Positions 4,067-28,281 of a DNA stretch of 64,000 nucleotides are shown piece after piece. The stretch is from Candidatus Adamsella avium (GTDB lineage: Bacteria > Cyanobacteriota > Vampirovibrionia > Gastranaerophilales > CAJFVJ01), in contig CAJFVJ010000003.1 in assembly GCA_904420445.1 (NCBI GenBank), forward strand, positions 186,001 to 250,000, read 5' to 3'. How positions within the stretch are numbered: the first letter of the stretch is position 1; each line of letters begins with the position of its first letter. A model generated the notes under the pieces. That model made no database searches and was not told the DNA's origin. It was given only the letters and a program-made list of their open reading frames with translations. Both the position numbers and the translations under genes were made by a program.

Positions 4067-4300
4067 ATGGCTAATAACGCAGTTAAAAACAGTATCAAAG
4101 AAGTAGCAATGAAGACTAAAGGCTGGAGCATCTACAAGCTTGCTCAGGAACTTGACCTTCCACAACAGACTGTATACAGTTGGGCGTGGAATAAAACCCA
4201 ACCGAATTACAAAAATCTTTTGAGAATATGCCATCTGCTAGAATGTTCAATGGAAGACATTTTTGAGGAAGCTATAAGAAAAAAGAAATTTCTGCATTAA
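4067..4300 (+). CDS. Small XRE-family HTH protein (77 aa)
   Basis: A single Cro/C1-type helix-turn-helix (WSIYKLAQELDLPQQTVYSW, then NLLRICHLLECSMEDIFEE) fills nearly the whole protein. This is the stand-alone DNA-binding type with no effector domain. An in-frame ATG at 3986 would add 27 residues with no ribosome site. The ATG at 4067 has GAGAGGA 7 nt upstream and gives the compact domain, so I use it. The gene ends with a 4-bp overlap with the convergent btuF gene. It may work with the tandem-HTH regulator across the structured gap, but that is only proximity. Confidence 0.75.
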   Translation: MANNAVKNSIKEVAMKTKGWSIYKLAQELDLPQQTVYSWAWNKTQPNYKNLLRICHLLECSMEDIFEEAIRKKKFLH

Positions 4301-5094
4301 AGTTTTGAAAAATATTGCACACTTTTATAAACTCTCGGTCCGGGACGGTTTATGACATCTCTTTCTTCTTTGGATAAGATTATTATCTTTGAATGAGGAA
4401 ACAGCTGCCTAAGACGTCTTGTATCGTCGAAAAAATTTACGACCACAATATCAGGAGAGGATTTCACTGCAAACTCTTCTGATATTGTAGGATAATACGC
4501 ATTCAAATTAGATGTAACGGAAAGTTGTCCTGATTTTTGTATTACATCAGTGATGAAGCTCTTCTTACCTATGGAAATCATTGGATTTACCTGAACGAGA
4601 TAGAGTATTTTCTTCGGAGAATTTGTTTTTATCTTCGATATTTGCTCTTTTATTGAAGATATAAGTTCTCCTGCTTGTTGCGTTTTATCTGTCAGTTTAC
4701 CTATGTATTCTATGTTTTTGTACACATCATTGATTGTATCAAATTTGAAGAATACGGGTTTTATGTCCGAATATCTAAAGCTTGCAAGGAGATATTGCGT
4801 TGAATCCATCGAAAAAATATAGGAGGGATTTAATCTTATTATTTTTTCTCTGTCGACAAAAAAGGTATTCCCTATCTTTGTTTTCAGGGAAGCTTCAATA
4901 GGATAATTACATTCTGTTGATACGCCTATCAAATTATCCTGAGCTTCGAGAGCATAAACTATCTCTGTTATCGACGGTGTTAGGCTGACATAAGTTGTCT
5001 TCTCCGCATAAGCATATGAGCAGAAAAAAAATACGCCGAAAAACAAACAGATTATTTTACTTATCAACCCGAACATAAAGCCTTTCACCATCAT
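4297..5094 (-). CDS. btuF: Periplasmic cobalamin-binding protein of ABC transporter (BtuF type)
   Basis: Type III substrate-binding protein (BtuF/FhuD/FecB fold, 265 aa). It has a signal peptide (ICLFFGVFFFCSYAYA, cut before EKTTY) and no lipobox. The mature start YVSLTPSITEIVYALE followed by LIGVSTECNYP is the BtuF-like opening. The fold ends in the expected C-terminal helices. The gene is last in a btuB-C-D-F operon and overlaps the ATPase gene by 38 bp, so translation is probably coupled. The start is uncertain: several ATGs (5094, 5076) lie before the signal peptide. The cobalamin assignment rests on the riboswitch at the head of the operon; by sequence alone a siderophore or heme binder is possible. 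Confidence 0.8.
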   Translation of the reverse strand: MMVKGFMFGLISKIICLFFGVFFFCSYAYAEKTTYVSLTPSITEIVYALEAQDNLIGVSTECNYPIEASLKTKIGNTFFVDREKIIRLNPSYIFSMDSTQYLLASFRYSDIKPVFFKFDTINDVYKNIEYIGKLTDKTQQAGELISSIKEQISKIKTNSPKKILYLVQVNPMISIGKKSFITDVIQKSGQLSVTSNLNAYYPTISEEFAVKSSPDIVVVNFFDDTRRLRQLFPHSKIIILSKEERDVINRPGPRVYKSVQYFSKL

Positions 5095-5788
5095 CTGTTA
5101 TTCTAAAGTTTATCCCGTAGATATTTTTTAGCATATCTTTGGTAAAGAATCCCTCTTTTGATTTGCAGAAAATTTTATGTTCTTTTGTTATCCCGATAAA
5201 ATAATCCCCGTAAGACTCTGCAAGATTCAAATCATGGAGGATTACAACAGCCGTAATTTCTTTTTGTTCGGTAAGTTTTTTTATCATATCAAGGATTTTT
5301 ATCTGGTTTATCAAATCCATATTGGAAGTAGGCTCATCAAGAAAAAAAACTTCTGCACCAGATAGCAGCCCTATCGCAATATTTGTTTTTTGCAGCTCGC
5401 CTGCGCTAAGTTTTTCCATAGACAAATTTTTGATATGGCTCAATTCAAGTTTTTCGATAATTTCATTAAGCAGTCTTTTCTCCTCCTTTGTCAAAAACCA
5501 TTTGACCATACTGTCTTTGAAAAAAACTGACGAAATATATTCCTCAACATCAAGCCCTTTTGGATAGCTGATTTTTTGAGGAAGATAAAATATTTTTTTT
5601 GATAACAGACCAAATTCTGAAACCTTATCAGGCTTTAGAAGCCCCGTAAGAATTTTCAGAACGGTAGTTTTTCCTGCACCGTTTGGACCGAGAATTACAT
5701 TAATCTTATGCTCACGCAGAGAAAGTTCGACATCTTCAAAAAAGATATTATCTTCAAATTTCAGATACAAATTTTTTATATCAATCAT
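5057..5788 (-). CDS. btuD: ABC transporter ATPase for cobalamin import (BtuD/FecE type)
   Basis: A 243-residue ABC ATPase with Walker A GPNGAGKT (about residues 36-43), an ABC signature LSAGELQKTNIAIGLL, Walker B VFFLDEPTSNMD and the switch histidine ILHDLNLAESYGD. The signature starts LSAGE rather than LSGGQ, a common variant. It starts 8 bp inside the permease gene and overlaps the binding-protein gene, in the usual permease-ATPase-binding protein order. It energises the BtuC-like permease in the inner membrane. Confidence 0.88.
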   Translation of the reverse strand: MIDIKNLYLKFEDNIFFEDVELSLREHKINVILGPNGAGKTTVLKILTGLLKPDKVSEFGLLSKKIFYLPQKISYPKGLDVEEYISSVFFKDSMVKWFLTKEEKRLLNEIIEKLELSHIKNLSMEKLSAGELQKTNIAIGLLSGAEVFFLDEPTSNMDLINQIKILDMIKKLTEQKEITAVVILHDLNLAESYGDYFIGITKEHKIFCKSKEGFFTKDMLKNIYGINFRITDDGERLYVRVDK

Positions 5789-6764
5789 TGAGAATATCTC
5801 CCTTCCTTGTCAAAAAGAAAACAAAAACAGGAGCGCCGATAAACGCCACAACAAGCCCGAGAGGTATCTGCATCGGATAAATCAATGTCCTTGATAAAAA
5901 ATCCGCAAATAAAATAAGCGATGCCCCTAAGAATATGTTCACAAAAAATAAATATCTGAAATCCTGTCCGACAATCATCTTCGAAATCAAGGGGGATATA
6001 ATCCCGATAAATCCCAAAATTCCCGCAGCTAAAACACTCAAGGAGGTCAAAAGCGCCGAGCAGACAATGAATAATATCGAATACATATTTTTATGTTTTA
6101 TTGATGAAAAAAACATCCCCTCATCAAGCCTCAAAAAATTCAATTTGGGAATAAGAAACGCCGAAAAAATTAATATTACAAGAAATATCAACAAAAGATA
6201 CCTGTCTGATACAAGGTTATTCTCCGTCAAATTGCCTGATAGGATATACAACATGGAATAAGACTTCTCTGAGTTCATAAGTATAATCATTGATATCAAC
6301 GCACTGACAAAGATGTTTATGGATAAGCCGACAAGAATTAACTTGGTAATCGAAAACTTGCGCAGCCCTGCAAAAGAGATAACAAGCAAAGAAGAAACCA
6401 TCGCCCCTAGAAAACCGAAGAAAGAATAATTTGCACTGTTAAAAAACAATACTGACAAAACAATCCCGAGCCCAGCCCCAGATGATATACCGGTAATATA
6501 AGGTTCTGCAAGAGGATTTTTTGATACGGTCTGCAAAAACAAACCTGCAAGAGCAAGGCACACTCCGGCAACTACAGCCTTAATAGCTCTCGGATAGCGT
6601 ATAAGCTCGAGAATAACAGCATCCTCAGAACTATCATTAAGATGAAAAGACTTCAAAAAAAGGTCAACGCCAAATCCGTCATGAGAGGCAAAAACTGAAA
6701 GATAAAAACATCCCAGAAACAAAAATAAAAGAATAACAATAGAAAGTATTTTATTTTTTCTCAT
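5781..6764 (-). CDS. btuC: FecCD/BtuC-family ABC permease
   Basis: Highly hydrophobic permease of the FecCD family with about ten transmembrane helices. It carries the conserved segments LRYPRAIKAVVAGVCLALAG and NPLAEPYITGISSGAGLG near the N terminus and GFIGIISPLISKMIVGQDFR in the second half. That last loop is the cytoplasmic coupling region that meets the ATPase. The start at 6764 has a GGGG site 6 nt upstream; an ATG at 6779 would add five residues. It lies 18 bp after the receptor gene, so receptor, permease, ATPase and binding protein form one transcription unit. Confidence 0.88.
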   Translation of the reverse strand: MRKNKILSIVILLFLFLGCFYLSVFASHDGFGVDLFLKSFHLNDSSEDAVILELIRYPRAIKAVVAGVCLALAGLFLQTVSKNPLAEPYITGISSGAGLGIVLSVLFFNSANYSFFGFLGAMVSSLLVISFAGLRKFSITKLILVGLSINIFVSALISMIILMNSEKSYSMLYILSGNLTENNLVSDRYLLLIFLVILIFSAFLIPKLNFLRLDEGMFFSSIKHKNMYSILFIVCSALLTSLSVLAAGILGFIGIISPLISKMIVGQDFRYLFFVNIFLGASLILFADFLSRTLIYPMQIPLGLVVAFIGAPVFVFFLTRKGDILND

Positions 6765-6796
6765 CCCTAACCCCGTCATCCAGCTATTCTATTATA

Positions 6797-8794
6797 TCAT
6801 AATGAATCTTTTCCCGTGTTCACTTTCATAAAAATTCCTGTCATAAAATGTATCCCAGGCTGGTAATAATTTTTGTACATTGATATTTTATGATCAAGCA
6901 GATTATACATCTGCGCTTTGAGATAAACATGGACGTTCTTTATGCTGAATAGCCTGATTATTGTTCCGAGAGAAACATTTGTATATCCTCCGACTCTGTC
7001 ATTGCCAGAATAAACTCTATCAGATGATGTTTCTACTCTTGCATAAGCGCTGAATCGTTCTTTGGGTGTGTAAACAACAGTGGCATTCAGCCTGTTTTTG
7101 GGAACACCCACCAGTTGATAACCCGTGTTTGAATCTTCAGAGTCTGTGTAGGTGTAGTTTAATATTGTTTTAAACTTCAAATTCGGCTGCCATTTTATAC
7201 TGGCTTCATATCCTCTGATTTTTGCCTCATCAACGTTCATATAAGTCCCTATCCATGTAACAGGGTCACTCTGCCAGCCGATATAATCATTATAAGAATT
7301 TGAGAAATATCCGAAATCAACACTCAATTTCTTGTTAAAAAATGTTTGCTCAACTCCGACATCCCAACCATTGAGTTTTTCAGCTTTCAAATTCGGATTC
7401 GGATCCATCATGCCTGCCAAACGTCCGAACATCTGATATAACGTAGGAGTATTGATGCTCTGTCCCCAGGAAGACCTGAATTTTGTATAATCCCCTTCCA
7501 TTTTGTATGAAGGTAGTATCAAAGCAGCAGACCCGTTCGGACTGACATAAGTGCCAAACTGCGAATGGTGCGTAAGCCTTGCGCCGCCTCGGAGAAATAA
7601 TCTGTCTTTGATATTGATTACATCATTGACATATACATCATTCTGAAGAGTATCACCGCTGAATCCGTTATATGACGGCCAGTAAGGGTCAAGAGAGTAA
7701 TCAGATACCGAGTTGAAAAAGTTCGACTCAAGATTGTACCCAAAAGACAGAGTGTTCCAATCTTTGTAGTGAAGATTGTGCTGAGATATAAAACTCAGTC
7801 TTGTACTTCTGAATTTATCGCTGCCTATCCCCGTATCATACCCGTCAGGTCTTTGATAAAAGTTATTGACGGTACTGAACACCCCGAAACGTGTAGATGA
7901 ATCATACCAGTCATTTGGCTTATAGTTGAATACCGTTGTATTAAATACATCAACATTTCTGCTGTAATCATTCGGGTCCTGAAGAATATAATCTCCAAAA
8001 CCGTTAATTCCTACATTTTTTCTTGAATTTGAAAATCTCAAAATATCACGTATCTCAGCCTTACCTTCAAGAAGTCTTTTTCCTACGTTAGCTGTAACAC
8101 TCAAAGAGTTATAATCATCGTTTTTTATTTTCTCTCCTTCATTAATTCTGAGTCCTCCGTCAGTCTTTAGCCAGTTTACACCGAGATAAAAGTCCTTGTC
8201 CTCATCTCCTCCCATTACAGCAAAACGTTCTTTGAAAGTTCCGAGATTGCCCATGCCTGATTCTATTTCAATTGAAGGTTTTCCATACCCTCTTCTTGTA
8301 CTCATGCTGACCAATCCGCCAGAGGCATTCACCCCTCCGATATTCCCCTGAGGTCCTTTGATTACCTCAATGCGTTCTATATCATCGCTAAGATAGTTGT
8401 TGAGATAAAATTTATTATCAACCGGACTGTCAGCTCTGATTCCGTCAATTGTCACCCTGACTCTGTCTGTTCCTCTGATACGAAAAGAAGTAATATCACC
8501 TGTTGACCCTGATGTTTGTATAGTTACACTGCCAAGCTGATTAAGTATTTCAGTGAGCATAGGAGAACCCTGCTCTTTTATATCTTCGAGTGTAACAACA
8601 TCGATGTTTGCACTTGCACTTTCTTTTGATTCAACGATATTATCAAGAGAATAAATTTGCTTTTCGCCGACCTGCCCGAAAAGCCTTGTTGTTTCTTCCT
8701 CACTTTTCTTGTTCTCTAAATCTTCAACAGCTGAAGCAATTTGAGATAGTGCACATACCAAGAACAGGGAAGAAAGAAATAATTTTTTAATCAT
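6797..8794 (-). CDS. btuB: TonB-dependent outer-membrane cobalamin receptor (BtuB-like)
   Basis: A roughly 665-residue TonB-dependent receptor. It starts with a signal peptide (KKLFLSSLFLVCALSQIASA). The plug domain follows, with ITSFRIRGTDRVRVTIDGIR, IERIEVIKGPQGNIGG and a GGLVSMSTRRG finish. The rest is a beta-barrel rich in alternating aromatic strands. It lacks the usual C-terminal aromatic end residue: about eight polar residues (NTGKDSL) follow the last strand. A longer frame begins with GTG at 8872, but that stretch is the riboswitch, so I take ATG 8794 (or 8797) with GAGG upstream. It imports corrinoid across the outer membrane using TonB energy; no tonB/exbBD is in the window. Its presence is good evidence for a diderm cell. 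Confidence 0.88.
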   Translation of the reverse strand: MIKKLFLSSLFLVCALSQIASAVEDLENKKSEEETTRLFGQVGEKQIYSLDNIVESKESASANIDVVTLEDIKEQGSPMLTEILNQLGSVTIQTSGSTGDITSFRIRGTDRVRVTIDGIRADSPVDNKFYLNNYLSDDIERIEVIKGPQGNIGGVNASGGLVSMSTRRGYGKPSIEIESGMGNLGTFKERFAVMGGDEDKDFYLGVNWLKTDGGLRINEGEKIKNDDYNSLSVTANVGKRLLEGKAEIRDILRFSNSRKNVGINGFGDYILQDPNDYSRNVDVFNTTVFNYKPNDWYDSSTRFGVFSTVNNFYQRPDGYDTGIGSDKFRSTRLSFISQHNLHYKDWNTLSFGYNLESNFFNSVSDYSLDPYWPSYNGFSGDTLQNDVYVNDVINIKDRLFLRGGARLTHHSQFGTYVSPNGSAALILPSYKMEGDYTKFRSSWGQSINTPTLYQMFGRLAGMMDPNPNLKAEKLNGWDVGVEQTFFNKKLSVDFGYFSNSYNDYIGWQSDPVTWIGTYMNVDEAKIRGYEASIKWQPNLKFKTILNYTYTDSEDSNTGYQLVGVPKNRLNATVVYTPKERFSAYARVETSSDRVYSGNDRVGGYTNVSLGTIIRLFSIKNVHVYLKAQMYNLLDHKISMYKNYYQPGIHFMTGIFMKVNTGKDSL

Positions 8795-8802
8795 CATAAA
8801 CC

Positions 8803-8893
8803 TCGTGCTCGCGAAATATTCCAACGGTAAGTGTTCTGACTTTACAGCTGCGGCACAGTTCCTGAATTTCACAGGATTTCCTTACCATATGTA
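8803..8893 (-). promoter_or_regulatory. Cobalamin riboswitch upstream of btuB operon
   Basis: On the minus strand the leader reads AGGAAATCCTGTGAAATTCA, then GGAACTGTGCCGCAGCTGTA, then AGTCAGAACACTTACC. This shows the P4 hairpin TCCTG-TGAAAT-TCAGGA, the G-C-rich central motif (GTGCCGCAGCTGT, consensus GGTCCCGCCACTGT) and a degenerate B12 box (12 of 16 consensus positions by my alignment). GTAAG/CTTAC at the two ends can pair to close the element. It ends within 10 nt of the btuB ribosome site, suggesting translational control: bound cobalamin would shut off uptake. Confidence 0.88.
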
Positions 8894-8949
8894 TGATGAT
8901 ATCATATGAATAATATTTTGTATAAAAGTTTACATTTAATTATAAATTT

Positions 8950-15145: not shown

Positions 15146-15829
15146 ATGGATAAGAATGAAAAATACATCGACCTGGAATTTGCAAAATTGGACATAGACA
15201 GGTTCAAAAGAAGAGGAGCATCGGAAGCTGTTTTTTGCGAGTGCAAAACAAACGAACAGCTCGAAACAATCTTCACGGCGTTCAAAAACAACAACTCAAA
15301 CATAATCGGAACAAGAGCTTGTATCGAACAATTCGAATTTCTCAAAAACAAATTCAACAATCTTGAATACAACGAAGCAGCAAGAGTCATAACACTTATT
15401 CAAAATCCTGTTGAAAAAGTCGGAGAAATTGCAATCTGCACAGGAGGAACAGGAGATATTCCGGTGGCAGAAGAAGCAAGAGCCGTAGCGGAATTTTTCG
15501 GAAGCAACACAAAAAAATACTATGATATAGGTGTTGCAGGCATTCATCGCCTGCTCTCAAACATAGATGAAATCAAAAAGGCAAATGTCATAATCGCTGT
15601 AGCAGGCATGGAGGGAGCTTTGGGAGGAATTATTGCAGGTCTTGTAGACATTCCTGTCATTGCAGTACCTACATCAGTCGGGTACGGTTCGTCGTTCAAG
15701 GGGTTGTCTGCCTTGTTAACTATGCTTAACTCTTGTGCCGAGGGAATGACTGTTGTAAACATAGATAACGGATTCAATGCAGGATACAGCGCAAGTCAGA
15801 TTAACAGAAAAATATCGGGGGCAAAATAG
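15146..15829 (+). CDS. larB: Nickel-pincer cofactor biosynthesis protein LarB
   Basis: A 227-residue PurE-like protein. In the known pathway LarB carboxylates the pyridinium ring of nicotinic acid adenine dinucleotide and cleaves its phosphoanhydride. The C-terminal PurE-type domain is clear: EIAICTGGTGDIPVAEEARA, IIAVAGMEGALGGIIAGL, PVIAVPTSVGYGSSFKGLSA. The N-terminal segment (DLEFAKLDIDRFKRRGASEA, then EAVFCECKTNEQL) is also typical of LarB rather than PurE. The next genes are larC, a nickel transporter component and larE, which confirms the pathway. It lies directly downstream of a TGATAG operator promoter. Confidence 0.93.
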   Translation: MDKNEKYIDLEFAKLDIDRFKRRGASEAVFCECKTNEQLETIFTAFKNNNSNIIGTRACIEQFEFLKNKFNNLEYNEAARVITLIQNPVEKVGEIAICTGGTGDIPVAEEARAVAEFFGSNTKKYYDIGVAGIHRLLSNIDEIKKANVIIAVAGMEGALGGIIAGLVDIPVIAVPTSVGYGSSFKGLSALLTMLNSCAEGMTVVNIDNGFNAGYSASQINRKISGAK

Positions 15830-15830
15830 A

Positions 15831-16568
15831 ATGAATTTATACTTTGAGTGTGCGTCAGGAATAAGCGGAGATATGTCGGTAGCAGCATTGCTTGATTTGG
15901 GAGCAGATAGAGAAAAACTCGAAAAAGCTCTTGATTCAATGAAACTTGATGATGAATTTTCTTTCAAAATTTCTGATGTTCTCATCAACTCAATCCATGC
16001 AACTGATTTTGATGTTACTCTCAAACACCATCACAATCATGAGCACCATCATCACCATGAACACAGAAACCTCGATGATGTGAACAAAATTATAGACAGA
16101 GCGGATATATCAGACTCCGCTAAGGCTCTTGCCAAAAAGATATTCAAAATAGTAGCGGAAGCGGAAGCAAAAGTTCACAACAGAAATATTTCAGAAGTCC
16201 ACTTTCATGAAGTCGGAGCAATTGATTCAATTGCTGATATAGTCAGTTTTGCTGTTTTATACGATGATTTGAATCCTGAAAAGACTTTCTTTTCAACACT
16301 TACTGAAGGGCGTGGATTTATTACCTGCCAGCATGGTAAACTGCCTGTTCCTGTCCCTGCAGTCTGTGAAATAGCAGCGAAATATAAACTTCCTCTCAGA
16401 ATTACCGATAATGAAGGAGAAATGGTTACACCGACAGGCGCAGCAATAGCTGCCGCACTATACACGGATGAAAAACTGCCAGAACAATTTGTTATAGAAA
16501 AAACAGGTTATGGAGCAGGAAAGAGGAAATATGAAAATCCTCTTCTTCGAGTTATGGTCATAAGATAG
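15831..16568 (+). CDS. larC: LarC-like nickel insertion protein, N-terminal domain only
   Basis: A 245-residue protein matching the N-terminal half of LarC, which inserts nickel into the pincer cofactor at the expense of CTP. It opens MNLYFECASGISGDMSVA. It has a metal-binding histidine stretch (about residues 64-77), the VHFHEVGAIDSIADIV motif, HGKLPVPVPAV and GEMVTPTGAAIAAAL. It ends at GYGAGKRKYENPLLRVMVIR, where LarC1 ends in organisms with a split gene. Full-length LarC is about 400 residues. The CTP-binding LarC2 part is missing: the nickel transporter gene starts 17 bp later and no frame contains LarC2 motifs. Start 15831 is 1 bp after larB; the in-frame ATG at 15777 lies deep inside larB and is rejected. 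Confidence 0.88.
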   Translation: MNLYFECASGISGDMSVAALLDLGADREKLEKALDSMKLDDEFSFKISDVLINSIHATDFDVTLKHHHNHEHHHHHEHRNLDDVNKIIDRADISDSAKALAKKIFKIVAEAEAKVHNRNISEVHFHEVGAIDSIADIVSFAVLYDDLNPEKTFFSTLTEGRGFITCQHGKLPVPVPAVCEIAAKYKLPLRITDNEGEMVTPTGAAIAAALYTDEKLPEQFVIEKTGYGAGKRKYENPLLRVMVIR

Positions 16569-16585
16569 AATAAAGGAGAATACAT

Positions 16586-17500
16586 ATGCATTTAGGAAAC
16601 GGTATAATTTGCCCGATAACAGGTATCCCAATGCTGGCAATAGCAGGGGTATCAGCAATCTGGGCATTAAAAAAAGCAAGAAAAGATTTCAAAAAAGAAA
16701 ATATCCCGCAGGCTGCAGCTCTGACAGCGTTTGTCTTTGCATTGCAGATGATTAACTTTACAATACCATCGACAGGGTCGAGCGGGCATATTATCGGAGC
16801 TGTTTTGCTTTCTGCGCTTCTCGGACCATATGCTGCATTTCTTGCGATGTGTGCAATCCTGACAGTGCAGGCTGTGTTCTTTGCTGACGGCGGTCTAATG
16901 GCACTAGGCTGCAATATATTCAATATGGGATTTCTTGCATGCTTTGTCGTATACCCTCTTGTTTATAAGCCTCTTGTCGTCGATAACAAAAAATATGCTC
17001 TCGGTGCATTTCTCTCATCCGTTGCAGCACTGCAGCTAGGGTCTGTTGCAGTTGTGGCAGAAGCATATCTCTCAGGTTCAATAACTTCAAACATAGCATC
17101 GTTTGCCGCTCTTATGCAGGGGATACATCTTGCTATAGGAGCTGCCGAAGGATTGTTTACTGCTGCTGTTGTATATGCGGTTATGAACGGTAAAATCCGC
17201 CAAAGCATACTTACATCTGTTTTCTCTGTATCAGCTCTTGTTATCGGAGCTTTCTTAGCACAATATGCTTCTCAAAAACCTGACGGACTCGAGTGGTCTT
17301 TGCTCAAGATGTCTGATTCTATGGTTATGCAGACTCAGGGCATCTTATATTCCATCTCTGAATCAATACAGGCAAAAACAGCTGTTCTCGCACAAATACA
17401 GCCCATAGCAGCAAATATATCCGGCATAATAATCACAGCACTTCTTATGGCAGCTGTCGGATATATGTTATCTTACAAAACAGTTGAAATATATGAATAA
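16586..17500 (+). CDS. Nickel ECF transporter S component, CbiM/NikM-NikN fusion
   Basis: A 304-residue integral membrane protein of the CbiM/NikM family. It begins MHLGNGIICPITG; the second-residue histidine is part of the metal site in this family and must be exposed by Met removal. FTIPSTGSSGHIIGAVL and ALGCNIFNMGF are further signatures. The last 80 residues hold KPDGLEW between two hydrophobic helices, the PDGLE domain of NikN. It is therefore a substrate-capture (M) plus small (N) subunit fusion. The ATPase (NikO) and Q component are not in the window. Its position inside the lar operon argues for nickel rather than cobalt. Confidence 0.87.
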   Translation: MHLGNGIICPITGIPMLAIAGVSAIWALKKARKDFKKENIPQAAALTAFVFALQMINFTIPSTGSSGHIIGAVLLSALLGPYAAFLAMCAILTVQAVFFADGGLMALGCNIFNMGFLACFVVYPLVYKPLVVDNKKYALGAFLSSVAALQLGSVAVVAEAYLSGSITSNIASFAALMQGIHLAIGAAEGLFTAAVVYAVMNGKIRQSILTSVFSVSALVIGAFLAQYASQKPDGLEWSLLKMSDSMVMQTQGILYSISESIQAKTAVLAQIQPIAANISGIIITALLMAAVGYMLSYKTVEIYE

Positions 17501-18275
17501 TAAATTTCAAAAACTTAGAAATAATCTTGAAAACTTAGGAAAGCAAGGCATCTGTCTTGCTTTCTCAGGTGGTATAGACAGTACGCTTCTTTTATATCTC
17601 TGCAAAGATATGAACCTGCATGCGGTAACATTCTCTTCCATATTCCAGCCTGAAGAAGAAACAGCGTTCACAAAACAACTCTGTAAACACTATAACATCA
17701 AACATACTGTTCTCGAACTTAACCCGCTTGATAATGAAATTATTAAAAATAATCCTAAAGACAGATGCTATCACTGCAAAAAAATGTTCTTCGAGCAAAT
17801 CAAATCATACGCAGAAGAAAACAATCTGAAAAATATACTTGACGGAACAAACTATGATGACCTGAAAGAATACAGACCGGGGTTAAAAGCCTTAAAAGAA
17901 ATGAATATTATCTCTCCTTTTGCAGAGCATAAAATAACCAAGGAAGAAATAAGACTCTATGCCAAAGAATGCAAAATAGAAATTTTTGACAAACCTTCAA
18001 CTCCCTGTCTTGCAACGAGATTTCCTTATGGCACCCTGCTTGAATCGCCTAAAATAGAGCAGGTAAAAACAGGAGAAAAAATTCTCAAAACCAACGGCTT
18101 TTTGCAAAACAGATTGAGAATGCATGGAGATGTAGCAAGAATAGAAATCGAAAAAAATAAATTCGATAAATTACTGAAAAACAGAGAAAAAATAACCAAT
18201 GAACTAAAATCCGCAGGATTTCACTATATTACCCTTGACCTTGAGGGGTTTCGCTCAGGAAGTATGGACAAATGA
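17493..18275 (+). CDS. larE: Sulfur transferase LarE of nickel-pincer cofactor synthesis
   Basis: A 260-residue PP-loop enzyme that adenylates the pincer precursor carboxylates and inserts sulfur. The PP-loop SGGIDST is at residues 25-31. DRCYHCKKMFF gives a cysteine pair and the TPCLATRFPYGT motif carries the cysteine equivalent to the sacrificial Cys of Lactobacillus plantarum LarE. Whether this version sacrifices its own sulfur or uses an Fe-S cluster cannot be told with certainty. The ATG at 17493 overlaps the transporter gene by 8 bp; the in-frame TTG at 17484 is unlikely. The stop overlaps the next gene (ATGA). Confidence 0.92.
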   Translation: MNNKFQKLRNNLENLGKQGICLAFSGGIDSTLLLYLCKDMNLHAVTFSSIFQPEEETAFTKQLCKHYNIKHTVLELNPLDNEIIKNNPKDRCYHCKKMFFEQIKSYAEENNLKNILDGTNYDDLKEYRPGLKALKEMNIISPFAEHKITKEEIRLYAKECKIEIFDKPSTPCLATRFPYGTLLESPKIEQVKTGEKILKTNGFLQNRLRMHGDVARIEIEKNKFDKLLKNREKITNELKSAGFHYITLDLEGFRSGSMDK

Positions 18276-19618: not shown

Positions 19619-20128
19619 TTATGCTTCCTGATAAGAAGTTGTATGATACAAAACAATTTCACCTGTTTTGAGAGATTGTTTTATATCAATAATCTTCTGA
19701 TTTGAACTTCCGACCCAGTGCAGATTGTTGTCTTTGAGAGCTTCTTCAAATTCCCCGTCAACAAGAACATCTGCCAGTTCCAAGCCCTTGCAGTCCTTCA
19801 CATCATCCCAGGAATAACCGGTATAAATCCAGATGGTCTTTTCAGGGAACATTTCACGGCATTTTTTCACAAGTCTGAACACTTCATCTCTGTTGAGAAA
19901 ATGCAGAGGATCTCCCCCGCTGAAAGTTATACCTGAAATATAAGGTTTATCCAATGCTTCAAAAAGCTCGTCTTCAGCCTCCTTATCAAAAGGCAGCCCG
20001 CCTGCCACATCCCAGGTTATCTGGTTTTGACAGTTTTTGCAGTGGTGGGTGCATCCTGCTACCCACAAGACAACCCTAAGCCCGTCACCATTGAGCATAT
20101 CGTCTTTTGTTATATTATGATAGTTCAT
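19619..20128 (-). CDS. nrdG: Anaerobic ribonucleotide reductase activating protein (radical SAM)
   Basis: A 169-residue radical-SAM activase. GCTHHCKNCQNQITWD supplies the C-x3-C-x2-C cluster motif. ISGITFSGGDPLHFLN is the glycine-rich SAM-binding motif, and KTIWIYTGYSWDDV follows. It makes the glycyl radical on NrdD using SAM and a 4Fe-4S cluster. It starts 2 bp after the nrdD stop, so the pair is one operon under the upstream riboswitch. Confidence 0.95.
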   Translation of the reverse strand: MNYHNITKDDMLNGDGLRVVLWVAGCTHHCKNCQNQITWDVAGGLPFDKEAEDELFEALDKPYISGITFSGGDPLHFLNRDEVFRLVKKCREMFPEKTIWIYTGYSWDDVKDCKGLELADVLVDGEFEEALKDNNLHWVGSSNQKIIDIKQSLKTGEIVLYHTTSYQEA

Positions 20129-20130
20129 CT

Positions 20131-22416
20131 CTACATACTCACTCTGTCTTTAATTTCTTCCATCTTTGCTTCGTTCAAACGGGTATCACCCTTCACTCTC
20201 GAATAAGAGAGATATCCGTTCATACGCTCTATTTTGGTAAGATTAGAGCTGCCGCATTTTGTACAGACATCCATATTCAACTCCTGATGCCCGCAGTCAT
20301 CGCAGTAGGTGAGCGAGAGATTAACTCCTTCATAAAATCCCATATCCATGGCTCTTTTTATCAAGACTTCTATTGCCTCGGTGTTATAAGAAATCGGATA
20401 TTTTACATACTGGATTTTTCCGCCGTTGAACAAATCCCAGAACCTTTTTTCGAGATTTTGTTTTTCAATCGGCGTAATATTTTCGCTTACATGGCAGTGG
20501 AAGCTGTTGGAAACATATCCTCTGTCTGAAACATTTTCAACTATGCCGTATTTTTTGCGGAATTGTTTTATTTGCAAACCGCACAAATTCTCAGCAGGAG
20601 TGCCGTATATTGCATAGAGATAACCGTCTTCTTTTTTATACTGCTCTATTTTTTCGTTGATATATTTCATTACCTCAAGAGCAAATTCGCCGTCTTCTGC
20701 TATTGATTTGCCGTTATAAATCTGCTGAAGCTCATTCAATGCGGTAATTCCGAATGAAGCTGTAGTGTATTTCAAAAGCGGCTTAATTTTATCATGAATA
20801 CCGAGATGACCTCCCAAGAAACCGCCCTCGCAATAAGCAAGAGGATTGACAGATGCTTTCATCTCTCCGAGATAATCAAGAGTCCTTCTATGAAGGTTTC
20901 TTATCATCTCCATATAATAATCAAGCTCTTTGTAGAAATCTTTGCTCTCTCTTTTCGCTTTTGCATAAATCATCGGGAGATGTAGACTAATCGCTCCGAC
21001 GTTAAATCTTCCGACAAAAACGGGTTTGTCATTCTCATCAGCAGGAGTCAAACCGCCTCTTTCAAACCATGGAGATAAGAATGCACGGCACCCCATAGGT
21101 GATACAACTCTTTTGTATTTCTTATACATACTAGCAACATAACCTTCTCCTGTTAGAGATAACCAATCAGGATACATGGATTTTTTCGAGCATTCAACAC
21201 CTGCTTTGAATAAATCTTCTGAAACTTTGCCCTCTCCATGGAGGTCTTTGTCGTATAAGAAAACAATTTTCGGGAATAATACAGGCTTTTTGCAGTCACT
21301 CTTGCCCTGTCCGTTCATTCTGACTTTCAACATTGCATGAGTTGCCATTTTCTCAAACTCACCTGTTCCAAGTCCTGCAGTTATGGCGATGAAGGGATAA
21401 TCCCCCCTGCATGAGGCTACAGAGTTGAATTTATATTCCCATCCCTGGAAACCTTGCTCCATATCACGTTGAACATCTTTCAGCGCTTCTTCTCTGGCTT
21501 TTTCAAACGGGACACCAAGACATACATATTTTTCGTAATAAACTTTATAAGACTTCTCTGCATACGGTGCAAGGACTTTATCAACTTCTGGCAGAGTAAA
21601 ACCGCCATATTGCTGTCCTGCCGCCGCCATAGTAACATCTCCGATAACATCAAAAGCAACACGGAGAGTCTTTGGCTCGTTATACCAGAGATTGCCCATT
21701 TCAAATCCGCCTTTCAGCACATTTGCAATGTCAAACAAACAGCAGTTCATCGTATCTCTTCTTGCTGACATATCATGGATGTAGATGTATCCGTCACGGA
21801 TTGCCTGAAGCTCATCTACGTTCAAAAAGAATTTTTTATACAGCTCTTTATTCAGCTGGTTGAAAATCAACGAACGTTTTGTTGAAACAAGAGTCGAATC
21901 GGCATTTGAATTTTCCTTATCACCGATATACATAATTTTCTGACTTTCTTGATAAACTTTATCAAGCATCTGAACAAAGTCTATTTTGTAGTTTCTATAA
22001 TCTCTATATGATTTTGCAACTTTCGGATTAACATCCTCAAGAACAGATTCCACAATATTATGCATCTGCGAAACATAAATCTCTTCGCTGCCTAGTTCCA
22101 GCACTCTTTTGTTCACAAGAGAGCAGATTTTTTCTATATCAGCATCGCTGAATTTTATCAGCATACGTTCAGCAGATTTTTTGACGGCATTCACTACTTT
22201 TTTGACATTATAACTGCCTACGGTGCCGTCTTTTTTGATTACTTTTACAGCATCCAGTTTGGGCGAAGAACTAATTATTACGATATTATTATCGGTTTTA
22301 ATACCTTTTTCATCCATCTTATATTTTATAAGATTTGTATTCTCAACTGCATTTGATACAATCTCGGATGAAAAAACTTCAGACAAACTTTTGTCTTTTT
22401 TTGACACATTTTCCAT
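20131..22416 (-). CDS. nrdD: Class III anaerobic ribonucleoside-triphosphate reductase
   Basis: A 761-residue glycyl-radical reductase making dNTPs without oxygen. The ATP-cone allosteric domain is at about residues 54-145 (KVIKKDGTVGSYNVKKVVNA). The catalytic core holds the substrate-proximal Cys in VECSKKSMYPDWL and another in NCCLFDIANVLKGG. The C terminus has a four-cysteine zinc ribbon (YCDDCGHQ with VCTKCGSS) followed by ERMNGYLS, the glycyl-radical site. The first 50 residues before the cone are extra and low in conservation signals. It is preceded by a cobalamin riboswitch although the enzyme does not use B12; this fits repression when a B12-dependent class II enzyme can take over. 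Confidence 0.95.
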   Translation of the reverse strand: MENVSKKDKSLSEVFSSEIVSNAVENTNLIKYKMDEKGIKTDNNIVIISSSPKLDAVKVIKKDGTVGSYNVKKVVNAVKKSAERMLIKFSDADIEKICSLVNKRVLELGSEEIYVSQMHNIVESVLEDVNPKVAKSYRDYRNYKIDFVQMLDKVYQESQKIMYIGDKENSNADSTLVSTKRSLIFNQLNKELYKKFFLNVDELQAIRDGYIYIHDMSARRDTMNCCLFDIANVLKGGFEMGNLWYNEPKTLRVAFDVIGDVTMAAAGQQYGGFTLPEVDKVLAPYAEKSYKVYYEKYVCLGVPFEKAREEALKDVQRDMEQGFQGWEYKFNSVASCRGDYPFIAITAGLGTGEFEKMATHAMLKVRMNGQGKSDCKKPVLFPKIVFLYDKDLHGEGKVSEDLFKAGVECSKKSMYPDWLSLTGEGYVASMYKKYKRVVSPMGCRAFLSPWFERGGLTPADENDKPVFVGRFNVGAISLHLPMIYAKAKRESKDFYKELDYYMEMIRNLHRRTLDYLGEMKASVNPLAYCEGGFLGGHLGIHDKIKPLLKYTTASFGITALNELQQIYNGKSIAEDGEFALEVMKYINEKIEQYKKEDGYLYAIYGTPAENLCGLQIKQFRKKYGIVENVSDRGYVSNSFHCHVSENITPIEKQNLEKRFWDLFNGGKIQYVKYPISYNTEAIEVLIKRAMDMGFYEGVNLSLTYCDDCGHQELNMDVCTKCGSSNLTKIERMNGYLSYSRVKGDTRLNEAKMEEIKDRVSM

Positions 22417-22444
22417 AATTACAACCCCCTCTTAGTCACGTAAG

Positions 22445-22527
22445 TCAATATAGAAAAGAATAAGCATTCCGGCTGTAACGGCTGCGGACCAGCGCAGGAT
22501 TTCCACCTGATCTTTCCTTATCCTCGT
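22445..22527 (-). promoter_or_regulatory. Cobalamin riboswitch upstream of nrdDG
   Basis: Minus-strand leader: AGATCAGGTGGAAATCCTG (P4 hairpin CAGG-TGGAAAT-CCTG), then CGCTGGTCCGCAGCCGTTA (central GGTCCCGC-like motif), then ACAGCCGGAATGCTTATTC in the place of the B12 box. GATAAG at the 5' end can pair with CTTATT near the 3' end to close the structure. The predicted transcription start (from the promoter at 22534-22561) falls at about 22527, exactly where the element begins. The B12 box is degenerate, so confidence is a little lower than for the btuB element. Confidence 0.8.
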
Positions 22528-22533
22528 CAAAAT

Positions 22534-22561
22534 ATTGTATCACATTTTTTATTTAATTCAA
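22534..22561 (-). promoter_or_regulatory. Promoter of nrdDG
   Basis: Minus strand -35 TTGAAT (22561-22556), 16-bp spacer, -10 TACAAT (22539-22534). Its position places the start of transcription at the first bases of the riboswitch. Confidence 0.6.
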
Positions 22562-27516: not shown

Positions 27517-28281
27517 ATGCATAAATTTTATAAATGGCTGTGTTTGGGTTTTGCCGGTTTTATTTTTTCCGGTCTAAACACTCTGACTGCTTCGGCTGAG
27601 GTAACTCTGCCGTCCATAAACATCGGCTTTCAAAGCGCAAACACCCCTGATGAATTCAGCAAAGGAATACAAATTCTCATTCTGCTGACTATTCTGACAC
27701 TTGCGCCAAGCATAATCATACTTACGACCTCTTTCACAAGAATAGTAATAGTCCTTTCTCTCACAAGACAGGCTATAGGTACGGCACAACTTCCGCCCAA
27801 TCAGGTTATTGTAGGACTTGCATTGATTTTGACATTCTTTGTCATGTCGCCGACCATCAACAAGATTTATGACACCGCTTACAATCCTTATATGGAAAAT
27901 AAAATCACCCAGCAGGAAGCTCTCAAACGAGGAATAGAGCCTATGAGAGATTTTATGTTCAAATATACGGATGAAAAAGAACTTGCAATGTTTGTCAAAA
28001 TGGCAAAAATCCAAAAACCTGCCAATAAAGACGATGTCCCAACCTATGTTCTGCTTCCTTCTTTTATTTTGAGCGAGCTGAAAACAGCCTTCAAAATAGG
28101 TTTTATGATTTTCATTCCGTTTCTTGTTATAGACATCGTTGTATCAAGTATTCTCGTTTCTATGGGGATGTTGTTTCTTCCTCCGACAACAATTTCCATG
28201 CCGTTCAAGATTATTCTCTTTGTAATGGTTGACGGGTGGCATCTGATAGCAAAGTCTCTTGTCGAGGGATTTCTACGGTAG
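27517..28281 (+). CDS. fliP: Flagellar export gate protein FliP
   Basis: A 254-residue export-gate subunit with a cleavable signal peptide (FAGFIFSGLNTLTASA). It has the family segments LTLAPSIIILTTSFTRIVIV and FVMSPTINKIYDTAYNPY, and the C-terminal LLFLPPT-like stretch MLFLPPTTISMPFKIILFVM. Start ATG 27517 follows a GGAGGAG site. First gene of the fliP-Q-R-flhB-flhA unit. It forms the helical export gate with FliQ and FliR in the flagellar basal body. Confidence 0.96.
   Translation: MHKFYKWLCLGFAGFIFSGLNTLTASAEVTLPSINIGFQSANTPDEFSKGIQILILLTILTLAPSIIILTTSFTRIVIVLSLTRQAIGTAQLPPNQVIVGLALILTFFVMSPTINKIYDTAYNPYMENKITQQEALKRGIEPMRDFMFKYTDEKELAMFVKMAKIQKPANKDDVPTYVLLPSFILSELKTAFKIGFMIFIPFLVIDIVVSSILVSMGMLFLPPTTISMPFKIILFVMVDGWHLIAKSLVEGFLR

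Follow-up and report, generated by a model that had tools for sequence, protein, structure and literature searches.

The window (the whole 64,000-nucleotide stretch of DNA analysed here) carries on its reverse strand the adjoining genes nrdD and nrdG, which encode the class III (anaerobic) ribonucleotide reductase (RNR) and its activase, preceded by a leader with a compact cobalamin riboswitch element (Table 1). The source genome is 2.1 Mb in size and 99% complete; judged by nrdD, its closest named relatives are Candidatus Gastranaerophilales bacteria, a gut lineage of the Vampirovibrionia/Melainabacteria, and NrdD is 99% identical in a same-genus genome (G001). The NrdD type of the window is 74–78% identical to Clostridia NrdD (Monoglobus, Lachnospiraceae) and has a patchy spread across the order, many of the genomes that encode it lacking nrdJ; taken together, the Clostridia-like identity and the patchy spread suggest transfer between phyla. 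NrdR was considered as a regulator of nrdD and rejected: there is no NrdR-box-like site nearby, and the pattern does not occur in the window above chance. A lar-type cluster at 15146–18275 (+), with LarB-, LarC-, CbiM/NikM-like permease and LarE-like genes, would by our reading of the translations serve nickel-pincer cofactor maturation.

Table 1. Features of the nrdDG locus, in window coordinates; RNA motifs are written 5' to 3' on the minus strand.
Feature	Position	Strand	Basis
Promoter-like sequence: TTGAAT (from 22561), spacer 16, extended -10 TG.TACAAT (22539–22534)	22534–22561	-	9/12 matches
Cobalamin riboswitch aptamer, compact class II type	22455–22525	-	RF01689 match, R1 model, orthologous leaders
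P3 helix, 8 bp: AGGAUAAG with CUUAUUCU	22524–22517 with 22464–22457	-	sequence; compensatory changes across leaders
J3/4: GAAAGAU		-	sequence
P4 helix: CAGG (22509–22506) with CCUG (22498–22495)	22495–22509	-	covariation
P5/L5: CUG-GUCCG-CAG; L5 GUCCG (22489–22485) is the kissing-loop strand	22482–22492	-	sequence
P6: CCG (22481–22479) with CGG (22471–22469)	22469–22481	-	sequence; invariant in 11 leaders
Expression platform P13/L13: CUUA-CGUGAC-UAAG	22431–22444	-	P13 variants and compensatory L5/L13 changes
Shine-Dalgarno region AGGGGG, directly 3' of the P13 3' strand	22425–22430	-	sequence
nrdD, class III (anaerobic) RNR, 761 aa; start codon ATG at 22416	20131–22416	-	TIGR02487, 572.2 bits (cut-off 326)
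nrdG, glycyl-radical activase of NrdD	19619–20128	-	TIGR02491, 185.8 bits (cut-off 126)

The leader element and its homologues

The sequence-only reading had proposed a cobalamin riboswitch-like element in the nrdDG leader, and a covariance-model search bears this out. At permissive settings, RF01689 (AdoCbl-II) matches 22524–22457 (-) with 27.8 bits; the E-value is 1.1e-4 when the 64-kb stretch is searched and 2.2e-4 when the 2.1-Mb genome is searched in full. The gathering cut-off of the family is 36.5 bits, and a search of the whole window with Rfam at gathering threshold gave no match at the nrdD leader, the sole riboswitch found being an AdoCbl-II element at 8899–8821 (-). In a whole-genome search with RF00174 (Cobalamin, class I), the btuB copy was the one match at E<=0.001, the nrdD leader being unmatched. 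While 27.8 bits is a low score, the low genome-wide E-value makes the nrdD-leader match more than chance. Furthermore, several orthologous leaders of the order carry the element in the same place, directly before nrdD, with scores above the RF01689 cut-off (48.7 bits in L014, 42.3 in L096, 41.3 in L038, 38.9 in L056 and 38.5 in L012; L186 and L178 are likewise above it). Because the orthologous leaders bear the same element above cut-off, we regard the riboswitch at nrdD as real, and a cobalamin riboswitch controlling nrdDG is almost certainly present. As the window's own copy is sub-threshold and its orthologs are not, we place it, on grounds of homology, with the class-II-like cobalamin riboswitches and do not count it as a scored RF01689 member; some compact cobalamin riboswitches evidently fall below the Rfam AdoCbl-II cut-off and are missed by it.

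With a model built from nrdD leaders (R1), the window copy scores 86.4 bits and ranks ninth across 383 genomes, although it is a member by construction, since the leaders used included this copy. No core position is lost, and L5 and L13 are preserved, both here and in the same-genus leader L008. Helix pairing was assessed in eleven aligned nrdD leaders (A2), in which 86% of cells are paired in the named structure and the covariation score is 0.320, as compared to 0.115 ± 0.027 for shuffled alignments (0/500); sliding the helix partners lowers the score. The covariation support comes from P3 and P4, the latter with both sides changed in 3/4 pairs and 97.7% of cells paired, P5 and P6 being invariant. 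With GGAAAG, CUGGUCCGCA and CGGAAU as conserved stretches across leaders, the element has the conserved aptamer core of cobalamin riboswitches (clan CL00101), with covariation in P3 and P4. The thermodynamic fold is no better than that of shuffled sequences (z = +0.9 to +1.0) and the plain fold does not show P13; an RNA that depends on ligand and tertiary structure can fail a minimum-energy folding test.

Downstream of the aptamer, which ends about 40 bases ahead of the nrdD start codon, the predicted structure has the L5–L13 kissing loop and P13 hairpin that characterise the clan. All five bases of L5 GUCCG could find a partner in L13 CGUGAC if U22438 is bulged; the L5 consensus is UCCCG (PMC10653944). 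The P4 loop, another candidate for the kissing-loop strand, was dropped given the L5/L13 definition in the same paper. A P13 hairpin whose loop is complementary to L5 is present in nearly all of 54 leaders, the P13 variants being CUUA/UAAG, UAUUA/UAAUA, CUUA/UGAG, CUUUG/UGGAG, CCU/AGG and CCA/UGG; in L030, L027 and L028 the script had chosen far-off hairpins, and the standard CCU..AGG P13 was found by eye. In several leaders L5 and L13 change in step, as GUUCG–CGAAAC (L173) and GACCG–CGGUUUC (L026), and the corresponding pair in the btuB switch of the window's own genome (L002) is GUGCCG–CGAGCAC. The L5 variants of L023, L033, L034 and L036 fit L13 less well, pairing over about three bases.

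Two expression platforms are found ahead of nrdD in the order. In the window type, the 3' strand of P13 directly adjoins the Shine-Dalgarno sequence or runs into it. In a longer type (L014, L016, L081, L096, L209 and L213), P13 is CCU/AGG and is followed by a segment with alternative pairing, either AGGAA with UUUCU or CCUUUUU with AAAAAGGAG; it reads as a two-step switch that would hide the Shine-Dalgarno sequence while P13 is held shut.

The interval originally assigned to the element, 22445–22527, holds the aptamer (22525–22455), while the kissing-loop hairpin and the Shine-Dalgarno sequence lie beyond it (22444–22425). As to the further claim that transcription starts at the first base of the element, the promoter-like sequence places the expected start at about 22527, and L008 has the same -10. 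Chance alone, however, often produces comparable matches in a stretch as AT-rich as this one (5 were found against 2.3 expected), so that the promoter is plausible rather than significant in its own right.

Ribonucleotide reductase classes and the distribution of the element

An nrdJ gene had been predicted elsewhere in the genome, and it is there: class II NrdJ is encoded by a single copy at G000:C1:681162–682925 (-) (TIGR02504, 760 bits). The riboswitch thus lies directly ahead of a B12-independent RNR in a genome that also has NrdJ. The class I small subunit (PF00268) was not found in the genome, and the switch would therefore be one of class III versus class II. The genome also encodes two BtuR adenosyltransferases, no PduO-type adenosyltransferase and no CobS, and the organism probably imports cobamides and adenosylates them.

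Two further cobalamin riboswitch elements were observed in the genome. The AdoCbl-II riboswitch at 8821–8899 (-; 49.2 bits) lies ahead of a BtuB-like TonB receptor and BtuC/D/F-like genes (4297–8872, -). A third, riboswitch-like element (L003, 1510–1579; G000:C2, near 27632–27711, +) scores 48.5 bits with R1 and 28 bits with Rfam; it is upstream of a 235-aa ORF with an CPHGMAPGACPICSG motif and no NCBIfam match, and has no clear or convincing L13.

Of the 383 genomes, all from the order, 203 have the NrdD type of the window, 222 have NrdJ and 56 have both. In a sample of 100 nrdD leaders searched with R1 at E<1e-3, the element was detected in 25/38 leaders from nrdJ-containing genomes (19 of them above 58 bits) and in 0/62 from genomes without nrdJ (Fisher p = 2e-14 with leaders counted as independent, which overstates the number of independent events as the sequences are related). 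The R1-positive leaders span seven genera besides the window's own, and the pattern recurs within genus g21, with 12/19 leaders positive where nrdJ is present and 0/4 where it is not. Most of the leaders behind R1 came from genomes with nrdJ, which could make the result circular; we therefore repeated the test with the Rfam models alone, which at E<=0.05 gave 12/20 with nrdJ and 0/60 without. By R1, 13/38 leaders of the window-type nrdD from nrdJ-containing genomes have no recognisable element. Decayed-looking elements, with P3 and P4 recognisable and L5 or the core altered, were seen in the nrdD leaders L191, L181, L198, L201 and L182, and the respective genomes retain nrdJ.

The element is not confined to one NrdD lineage. 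Among the best 30 R1 matches in the 383 genomes, 28 precede nrdD and two precede btuB-like receptor genes; many of the NrdDs concerned are merely 22–28% identical to that of the window and form a second lineage, NCBIfam PRK08270, with or without an ATP-cone. As lower bounds taken from the best 150 R1 matches, the switch precedes PRK08270-type nrdD in at least 70/90 cases where nrdJ is present and at least 6/36 where it is absent. The genomes with the riboswitch and no detected nrdJ (G019, G081, G184, G224, G316 and G350) are mostly incomplete assemblies; G081, in turn, is 99% complete, and we therefore consider the nrdJ rule strong, not absolute. In L213, L212 and L211 (G057, G349 and G206), about 40–70 additional bases form an arm of the aptamer between the two strands of P6, reminiscent of the peripheral arm found in class I cobalamin riboswitches. 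It is fairly likely that across the order the riboswitch controls at least two distant class III RNR lineages, by way of two ribosome-site platforms, and is kept largely where NrdJ is present. If so, isozyme switching would have been built repeatedly in these B12-importing gut bacteria, as a mode of regulation that spans the order.

Proposed control of nrdDG by cobamide and its alternatives

Three findings favour the isozyme switching between classes III and II that the sequence-only reading had suggested: the genome encodes NrdJ, it has no class I small subunit, and the element co-occurs with nrdJ across the order. We put the probability that a cobamide represses nrdDG, handing over to NrdJ, at roughly 0.85, and lower for the details of ligand and step; the ligand, the sign of the response (repression) and, from the anatomy of the leader, translation as the controlled step are what we infer. 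Adenosylcobalamin or a related cobamide would fill the aptamer, upon which L5 GUCCG would dock on L13 CGUGAC and hold the weak P13 (CUUA/UAAG) shut against the Shine-Dalgarno sequence AGGGGG, resulting in poor translation of nrdD and the adjoining nrdG. With B12 present, dNTP synthesis would proceed via the B12-dependent class II NrdJ; with B12 scarce, P13 would open and the B12-independent class III enzyme would be made. Counting against this scheme are the sub-threshold Rfam score, the short (4 bp) and AU-rich P13 of the window, the nrdJ-containing genomes with no recognisable element before this nrdD, and the six genomes of the second lineage with the element and no detected nrdJ.

The part of this scheme most readily replaced is the ligand. 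Methyl- or hydroxocobalamin or another cobamide could be sensed instead, in which case the switch would report total cobamide and not the NrdJ cofactor. Class II cobalamin riboswitch forms differ in the preferred upper ligand, and the nrdD-leader aptamer is compact. Broad sensitivity to corrinoid cofactors is described for cobalamin riboswitches (PMC9600662). Given that the best-matching family is named AdoCbl-II and that BtuR could adenosylate imported cobalamin in this genome, we consider such a ligand possible, if doubtful. A genuine cobalamin riboswitch that acts on transcription, by intrinsic or Rho-dependent termination, is a less likely alternative still: transcriptional control does occur among cobalamin riboswitches (PMC10653944), and the longer-platform leaders L014, L016, L081 and L096 have a U-run in ...UUUCUGCCUUUUU, but the window's nrdD leader has no terminator-like site, and its P13 abuts the Shine-Dalgarno sequence, with 14 bases alone between the P13 3' strand and the start codon.

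It is very improbable that the element is a degenerate, non-functional remnant or a chance resemblance. While the score below the curated Rfam cut-off and the decayed copies among relatives (L191, L181 and L198) would fit this explanation, the core and both loops are intact in the window copy and in L008, the R1 score is high (from a model that includes the copy), the helices and the L5–L13 loops covary, and the element co-occurs with nrdJ. Repression of nrdDG by a cobamide where NrdJ can take over is thus the reading we prefer. It would imply that the dNTP synthesis of these gut anaerobes responds to B12 that other organisms supply, linking community vitamin exchange to growth.

Comparison with known systems

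In Streptomyces, a B12 riboswitch at nrdAB represses the B12-independent reductase when NrdJ can work; nrdAB is class I, whereas nrdDG here is class III, and the nrdDG operons of Desulfovibrio and Desulfuromonas are the closer precedent. B12 elements lie before nrdDG in Desulfovibrio vulgaris and Desulfuromonas, NrdJ is present in all delta-proteobacteria studied, and B12 was proposed to repress the B12-independent isozyme (Rodionov et al. 2004, PMC545781). The arrangement is alike, in that a B12 riboswitch precedes the class III operon, nrdJ is encoded elsewhere in the genome and the same isozyme switch was proposed, but the phylum differs, the aptamer here is of the compact class II type, two distant NrdD lineages are involved, and co-occurrence was tested over hundreds of genomes. 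In Propionibacterium acnes, cobalamin riboswitches are annotated before nrdDG and nrdAB and none before nrdRJ (PMC3848588); the nrdDG leader thus resembles ours and the nrdRJ operon has no switch, although P. acnes also has class I nrdAB, whereas the genome studied here has classes II and III alone. A cobalamin riboswitch is likewise annotated upstream of nrdD in Chlorobium, in a population-genomics survey (PMC8620254), the excerpted text of which holds no isozyme test.

As for mechanism, in env8HyCbl and E. coli btuB the kissing loop stabilises P13, promoting the hairpin that hides the ribosome binding site (PMC10653944). The nrdD leader shares with env8HyCbl and the AdoCbl-II family (RF01689) a compact aptamer and a bulged kissing loop predicted to close a hairpin at the ribosome binding site, and differs from the class II riboswitches of RF01689 in that this copy scores below the cut-off.

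Among the publications searched on Melainabacteria and riboswitches, no title or abstract bore on a B12 switch at nrdD. The principle is already known, from nrdDG B12 elements with nrdJ elsewhere in the delta-proteobacteria in 2004 and later in Propionibacterium. The proposal that isozymes independent of B12 are switched off by the vitamin came from comparative genomics 20 years ago; the present analysis carries it over to uncultured gut Vampirovibrionia and puts it to a clean quantitative test, in that the switch largely tracks the presence of nrdJ in the Gastranaerophilales. New as compared to the earlier systems are the taxon, the two NrdD lineages, the two platform types and the tight co-occurrence with nrdJ.
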